The translations under genes were made by a program, and so were the position numbers. From contig WHTX01000020.1 in the NCBI GenBank assembly GCA_009377505.1, positions 1 through 32,346 of the forward strand: a DNA stretch of 32,346 nt. The letters are read 5' to 3'. Under the pieces are notes generated by a model. It was not told where the DNA came from, did not search any database, and saw only the letters and a program-made list of their open reading frames with translations. Positions 7,678-8,703 of the stretch are shown piece after piece. Positions within the stretch are counted from its first letter, which is position 1. Each line of letters begins with the position of its first letter. The stretch is from Acidimicrobiia bacterium (GTDB lineage Bacteria; Actinomycetota; Acidimicrobiia; Acidimicrobiales; CAIXPF01).

Positions 7678-7810
7678 CTGCCTGCCCGCTCCCGGCCCGC
7701 TCGGGCCATTCGCTCCGCTCATCTGCCTGCCCGCTCCCGGCCGCTCGGGCCATTCGCTCCGCTCATCTGCCTGCCCGCTCCCGGCCGCTCGGGCCATTCG
7801 CTCCGCTCAT
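7678..7810 (-). repeat. Tandem 44-bp repeat forming a chain of overlapping 15-codon ORFs
   Basis: Three head-to-tail units (44, 44 and 45 bp) start at ATG 7810, 7766 and 7722 on the minus strand. The first unit's ATG overlaps the oppC stop (TGATG). Units 1 and 2 each encode [15 protein letters not shown] and stop with a TGA that overlaps the next unit's ATG (ATGA). The mini-ORFs span 7763-7810 and 7719-7766. Unit 3 carries one extra C (7697 region), which removes the stop and lets its frame run into oppD. The array therefore looks like serial termination-reinitiation between oppC and oppD. It has no spacers and is not a CRISPR. Confidence 0.9.
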
Positions 7811-8703
7811 CAGAGGTTCCGCTGCTTGGGGTCGAGGCGGACCCGTAGCCAATCACCGAGCATGTTGGTGGCGAAGACGGTGGCCGCGATGAGCACGCCC
7901 GGGGCGGCGACGTGCCACCACTGCCCGGCGAACACCAGCGCCCGGGCGTCGGCCACCATCGAGCCCCAGGCCGGCGTCGGCGCGGGGATACCGAGGCCGA
8001 GGAAGGACAGCGAGGCCTCGAGGATGATGACCACGCCCACGGTGAGGCTGGCCAGCACCATCCACGTGTTGAGGATGTTGGGGACGATGTGGCGCCGCAT
8101 GATCCGCCAGCGGCTCGCCCCGGCAACCTCGGCCAGTCGCACGAAGTCCCGCTCCCTCAGTGACAGCACCTCACCGCGGATGACCCGGGCGTAGCGGGTC
8201 CAGTAGACGAGGCCGAGGATGACCACGATGGTCCACTGGCTCGGCCTCATCACCAGGGCGACGAACACCGCGAAGATCAACGACGGGAGCGCCAGCCACG
8301 CATCGATGACCCGCATGGCCAACTGATCGACCCAGCCGCCCAGGTAGCCGGCGACCACCCCGAAGACCAGCCCGATGAAGCCGGCGACCACTGTCCCCAC
8401 GACGCCCACGGTCAACGACACGCGCGCGCCGTAGATCACCCGGGACAGCACGTCCCGGCCCTGGAAGTCGGTGCCCAGAGGCGTGCTCCAGCTGCCGCCC
8501 TGCCACACGGGAGGGGCCAGGAGGCCGACGCCCGGCACCGGCCGCAGCGGGTCATGAGGAGCGACGAGGGGAGCGAACACCGCCACGAACACCAGCGTCG
8601 TCAGGATCCCCACCGCGAGCATCGGAGCACCCGACAAGGCCTCGCGCACCCGGCCGAGCACCCGCCGCCGGGAGGGGAGCAGTGCACCGCTGACGACGCC
8701 CAT
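7810..8703 (-). CDS. Peptide/nickel-type ABC transporter permease (OppC/DppC-like)
   Basis: An inner-membrane permease of 297 residues. An N-terminal cytoplasmic segment and first helix (MLAVGILTTLVFVAVFAPLV) are followed by the OppC-type periplasmic loop PLGTDFQGRDVLSRVIYGAR. Several more helices and the ATPase-contact EAA loop EVAGASRWRIMRRHIVPN come next. The ATG at 8703 lies 7 bp after the oppB stop. The TGA at 7810-7812 overlaps the ATG of the first repeat unit. It pairs with OppB as a heterodimer. Confidence 0.93.
   Translation of the reverse strand: MGVVSGALLPSRRRVLGRVREALSGAPMLAVGILTTLVFVAVFAPLVAPHDPLRPVPGVGLLAPPVWQGGSWSTPLGTDFQGRDVLSRVIYGARVSLTVGVVGTVVAGFIGLVFGVVAGYLGGWVDQLAMRVIDAWLALPSLIFAVFVALVMRPSQWTIVVILGLVYWTRYARVIRGEVLSLRERDFVRLAEVAGASRWRIMRRHIVPNILNTWMVLASLTVGVVIILEASLSFLGLGIPAPTPAWGSMVADARALVFAGQWWHVAAPGVLIAATVFATNMLGDWLRVRLDPKQRNL

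Follow-up and report, generated by a model that had tools for sequence, protein, structure and literature searches.

A dispersed tandem repeat resembling MIRUs at operon stop-start junctions of an Acidimicrobiia bacterium

Two repeat arrays in the opp operon

The window, a stretch of 32,346 nucleotides from contig WHTX01000020.1, carries the genes oppC, oppD and oppF one after another on its minus strand (Table 1). The names oppC and oppD given in the original prediction were right according to Pfam (BPD_transp_1 for OppC, ABC_tran and oligo_HPY for OppD), and OppF likewise matched ABC_tran and oligo_HPY. Between oppC and oppD, three units of 44, 44 and 45 bp (7810-7678) are chained on the minus strand by TGATG and ATGA overlaps. 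Tandem Repeats Finder reported a period of 44 with 3.3 copies and 99% matches at 7666-7811, and together with the minus-strand reading this confirmed the predicted stop-start chain as real. On this strand, the end of oppC reads CTCTGATGAGC... and is followed by the units and then by the oppD start. The oppC stop TGA is located at 7812-7810 and has its A in common with the first ATG, exactly as predicted. Units 1 and 2 each contain a closed 15-codon ORF with an identical predicted product of 15 residues, and each TGA overlaps the next ATG by 4 nt (ATGA). The prediction had assigned such a closed ORF to every unit. This was correct for the first two, but not for unit 3, where an extra G, which had also been foreseen, lets the frame continue into OppD and extends its N-terminus by 15 residues.

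A second, two-unit array of the same family, which the original prediction had missed, lies between oppD and oppF on the minus strand from 6703 to about 6631. It is of the GTG type with a 45-bp step and without a stop-restart, and it is read in frame, adding at least 15 residues to OppF. Apart from these arrays, the window contains a 39-nt inverted repeat (3288-3326 and 21312-21350) whose arms are 97% complementary and 18 kb apart.

Table 1. Genes and repeat units at the opp junctions (positions in the window)
Feature	Position	Strand	Description
oppC, permease	7810..8703	-	Pfam BPD_transp_1; upstream partner of the oppC|oppD junction
unit 1	7767..7810	-	44 bp, ATG type; one base common to its ATG and the oppC stop (TGATG); 15-residue ORF
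unit 2	7723..7766	-	44 bp; mini-ORF as in unit 1; its start and the stop of unit 1 overlap (ATGA)
unit 3	7678..7722	-	45 bp (extra G); in frame with OppD, 15-residue N-terminal extension
partial unit ATGAGCGGAGCG	7666..7677	-	native-looking oppD start
oppD	6700..7677	-	Pfam ABC_tran + oligo_HPY; downstream partner of the oppC|oppD junction
second array unit A	6659..6703	-	45 bp, GTG type; GTGA includes the oppD stop
second array unit B (truncated)	6631..6658	-	in frame into oppF
oppF	5564..6658	-	Pfam ABC_tran + oligo_HPY
putative start-codon hairpin sequence			RTGAGCGNAGCGAAY

Dispersal, placement and reading frame of the family

Allowing up to 3 mismatches, the core GAGCGNNGCGAAYGGCCCGAGCGGCC matched the 5.35-Mb assembly at 159 places, while the reversed pattern used as a control gave 3. 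The repeat between oppC and oppD thus belongs to a dispersed family and is far beyond chance. The family occurs as tandem arrays of 1-5 units each. Its source species is represented by one genome; the analysis covered the flanks of about 50 arrays and all their units, in the stretches round the matches. Among 58 relatives of the same family or order, one had a single weak match to the core at 2 mismatches and the other 57 had none. The exact core pattern was absent from genome_contigs (84,980 species genomes, in a search that possibly skips the window's own species) and from viral_contigs. Several contigs of the assembly end within arrays, which fits repeats. In two cases, L032/L046 (C19, C217) and L063/L073 (C417, C340), the contig ends lie within matching arrays, and these breaks suggest longer repeat tracts at both places.

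For gene calling round the arrays, a home-made model of codon usage, derived from this DNA itself, took the place of a trained gene finder. In 21 of the 36 RTGA arrays with an upstream flank, the first TGA coincided exactly with the stop of a gene on the same strand; by these codon-model calls, no array lay inside a gene. RTGAGC sites outside arrays were found at 14 same-strand stops, at 9 other gene starts, at 52 intergenic positions and at 337 positions within genes. Stop overlap was therefore much more frequent for arrays (21/36) than for non-genic RTGAGC sites (14/75; P 1.5e-7). The coding frame downstream had the same orientation as the array in 44 cases and the opposite one in a single case. 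Junctions with arrays include cutM-cutS, rimP-nusA, pgsA-cinA, argH-methylpurine glycosylase, an amidotransferase-purD pair and two permease genes. A dispersed element suited to gene junctions and bringing its own start and stop had been proposed, and both the 159 matches and the position of the 21 arrays support it: the genomic copies cluster at ATGA/GTGA junctions rather than lying far from gene starts or in random phase. A minority (L047, L057, L065 and L070) is located away from stop-start overlaps. L047 and L065 each consist of one copy that follows AAAGATGAGCG or GAAAGATGAGCG, has no RTGA after it and apparently lies outside operons. They may be degraded copies or a distinct type of insertion.

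The distance from one unit to the next was 42 bp in 28, 43 bp in 2, 44 bp in 22 and 45 bp in 10 of 62 steps. All 22 steps of 44 bp landed on RTGA, compared with 1/28 of the 42-bp and 9/10 of the 45-bp steps. Steps of 42 and 45 bp (38/62) kept the frame and added 14 or 15 residues. Shortened units in L056 and L067 measured 35 bp, which is also 2 mod 3. From the step lengths and their landings, a frame rule follows: lengths of 2 mod 3 coincide with a stop-restart, lengths of 0 mod 3 are read in frame and lengths of 1 mod 3 are avoided. The idea that each added unit equals one termination-reinitiation step was hence borne out for the 44-bp steps (22/62), but not for the 42- and 45-bp steps. In 32 of 35 arrays, a simulated ribosome that began at the first RTG and was permitted to restart at -4 and -1 only got into the coding frame downstream, compared with 21.2 for random phase (P 5e-6). 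In L064, one of the three failures, its path ended a few bases short of the next ATG.

Proposed insertion at stop-start overlaps and competing explanations

The same junctions were repeat-free in relatives. For cutM-cutS, three genomes of family relatives showed a bare ATGA overlap (-4) and a fourth had TGATG; for rimP-nusA, they had ATGA (-4) in one genome and spacers of 64-67 nt in four. The pgsA-cinA junction was repeat-free with ATGA (-4) in one relative, and the purD junction had TGATG in one and distances of +4 to +7 in others, again without the repeat. Several relatives had spacers of 19-70 nt and not ATGA at equivalent junctions, which counts against the insertion model given below. 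In the source genome, both cutM-cutS and rimP-nusA contain 86 bp with CGATGAGC at both borders. Left and right flanks also agreed beyond RTGA, at position -1 in 17 of 23 cases with 9 expected, at most a hint that the target duplication is longer. The closest relative of oppC (69%, G005) has no oppD downstream and therefore, no close repeat-free ortholog of the oppC|oppD junction is available. Distant paralogs read ATGAGCGAGCC. From the repeat-free junctions in these distant, family-level relatives we infer that the repeat moves.

The array between oppC and oppD is best explained, and with good probability, as a single insertion, at an operon stop-start overlap, of a mobile repeat that is short, specific to the species and MIRU-like, nearly harmless since ribosomes would still reach the downstream gene. 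The element would recognise or recombine at RTGAGC, typically in an ATGA or GTGA overlap within an operon. It would end up with this motif on either side and hence come to lie after the stop of the upstream gene and before the start of the downstream gene. A unit would open with a start codon; at 44 or 35 bp it would end in a stop overlapping the next start, and at 42 or 45 bp it would stay open and in frame. Ribosomes coming from the upstream gene would then reach the downstream gene by at least one -4/-1 reinitiation or by a short N-terminal extension. Such a nearly harmless insertion could persist even in operons of housekeeping genes, and tandem copies would arise by slippage or recombination.

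The unit start follows the pattern R-T-GA-GC-GNA-GC-GA-A-Y and may form a hairpin. In short DNA, a GNA loop on two G-C pairs is extraordinarily stable (PMC4686876). The foot bases of the first units were A..T in 25, G..C in 17, A..C in 1 and G..T in 0 cases, a tally of copies and not of events. This covariation fits pairing, but it might also reflect simple linkage in two inherited subfamilies. Standard folding of the array was no better than that of shuffled sequences (RNA z 0.4, DNA z 1.3) and neither supports nor excludes the hairpin, since the energy model is not known to score separately the sheared G-A pairs on either side of a GNA loop. In other families of the order, each listed copy of the core hairpin had a G..C foot, though the pattern allowed all four combinations. 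A more specific, but doubtful version of the insertion model would have the target chosen by base pairing in single-stranded DNA. The host RTGA would fold onto the GAAY of the element round the GC-GNA-GC mini-hairpin, so that copies of the A type (AAT) would go into ATGA junctions and those of the G type (AAC) into GTGA junctions. The enzyme would have to be one other than a Y1 transposase: Y1_Tnp (PF01797), the family sought, had 0 matches in the assembly, which is 92% complete, while control genomes were positive. This speaks against a Y1 transposase as the mover and also counts against the insertion model, as the element could be linked to no transposase.

Copy number may possibly tune expression. 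As rheostats, the arrays would be retained because every stop-restart step reduces the output of the downstream gene by the same factor, with slippage adjusting the stoichiometry of the operon. The 44-bp units would each add a reinitiation step, and higher mRNA accompanied the longer of the MIRU-VNTR tracts upstream of fpg in M. tuberculosis (PMC2734929), so repeat number can matter. However, that effect concerns mRNA and is upward instead of a loss per step, 38 of the 62 steps in the present family are in frame and add no restart, and the flanking functions (opp, cutMS, rimP-nusA, pgsA-cinA, argH-glycosylase, purD) are unrelated. Such a rheostat is therefore considered improbable. An equally small chance is given to insertion at random RTGA sites without any targeting, after which selection leaves the harmless copies. 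It would agree with the lack of arrays within called genes, and the near absence of frame-breaking 43-bp steps argues that purifying selection acts; yet, intergenic RTGAGC sites, where an insertion ought to do no harm, outnumber stop-overlap sites by about 4:1, while most placed arrays are found at stop overlaps. A tandem duplication confined to the start region of oppD, and without further significance, could account for ATGAGCGGAGCG being common to the unit and the oppD start, but it is refuted by the 159 genome matches beside many unrelated genes and has virtually no chance of being correct.

Comparison with known repeats

Guide pairing is known from IS200/IS605-type and REP/RAYT elements. 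The putative mini-hairpin is reminiscent of it in that its foot holds the target tetranucleotide (RTGA pairs with GAAY). The present element differs from both groups by having no GTAG motif, by its tandem arrays and start-codon placement, and by the fact that no Y1 transposase was found in the assembly. Unlike REP elements, it does not consist of extragenic palindromes in non-coding spacers, as the arrays are mostly situated in stop-start overlaps and form open frames. Other families of the order have hairpin repeats of the form GTGAGCGNAGCGAACGGC, which share with it the 17-nt core hairpin with a G-C foot. They differ outside the core, which is often preceded by AACTCGGTTA, and the gene downstream mostly points towards the repeat, so that they tend to be found at gene 3' ends instead of start codons. 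Likewise, L155-L212 from other families of the order represent a different repeat, often ...AACTCGGTTAGTGAGCGNAGCGAACGGC, with the core hairpin in common and a tendency to gene 3' ends. Given their different surroundings and gene context, these core-hairpin repeats were rejected as the same element. The TAACTGA direct repeats of Beggiatoaceae are also dispersed, in tandem and just upstream of the start codons of unrelated genes, but their unit is 7 bp long and intergenic, and no stop-start chain is reported in the part of the account considered here (PMC4679880).

The closest parallel is provided by the MIRUs (mycobacterial interspersed repetitive units), the repeats by which tuberculosis strains are fingerprinted. 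According to a 2025 review, they are apparently mobile and take up positions at start codons such that an ORF of their own is coupled at -4 spacing, with a likely minimal impact on the gene (PMC12548453). The statement that no described element follows this logic is thus not supported. Both are dispersed short tandem repeats in operons, placed at start codons, with a small same-direction ORF and a -4 overlap (PMC12548453). MIRU lengths of 77 and 53 bp (PMC4213456) and the present 44 and 35 bp are all 2 mod 3. The present units are only about half as long, many of them (42 or 45 bp) are read in frame, and they have a putative start-codon hairpin with a covarying foot. MIRUs, as described by Supply in 1997, reportedly have no obvious dyad symmetry. 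A literature search for MIRU-like elements outside mycobacteria yielded nothing useful.

If the insertion model is true, mycobacteria would not be an odd exception in having repeats at translational-coupling sites, and an unrelated-looking sequence would fill the same niche in another lineage. The approx. 50 arrays with steps of 42, 44 and 45 bp would then be natural experiments on the number of stop-restart steps that an operon can bear, and automated annotation of N-termini in such genomes would include repeat-encoded extensions. With its dispersed tandem units, its insertion at junctions, a -4-coupled same-direction ORF and repeat-free junctions in distant relatives, the element appears to work like a MIRU. 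As common descent is not claimed, it is referred to as MIRU-like and not as a MIRU. Compared with MIRUs, its novelty would lie in an unrelated-looking sequence in another lineage, in the occurrence of in-frame 42- and 45-bp units beside restarting 44-bp units, and in the putative, covarying start-codon hairpin.
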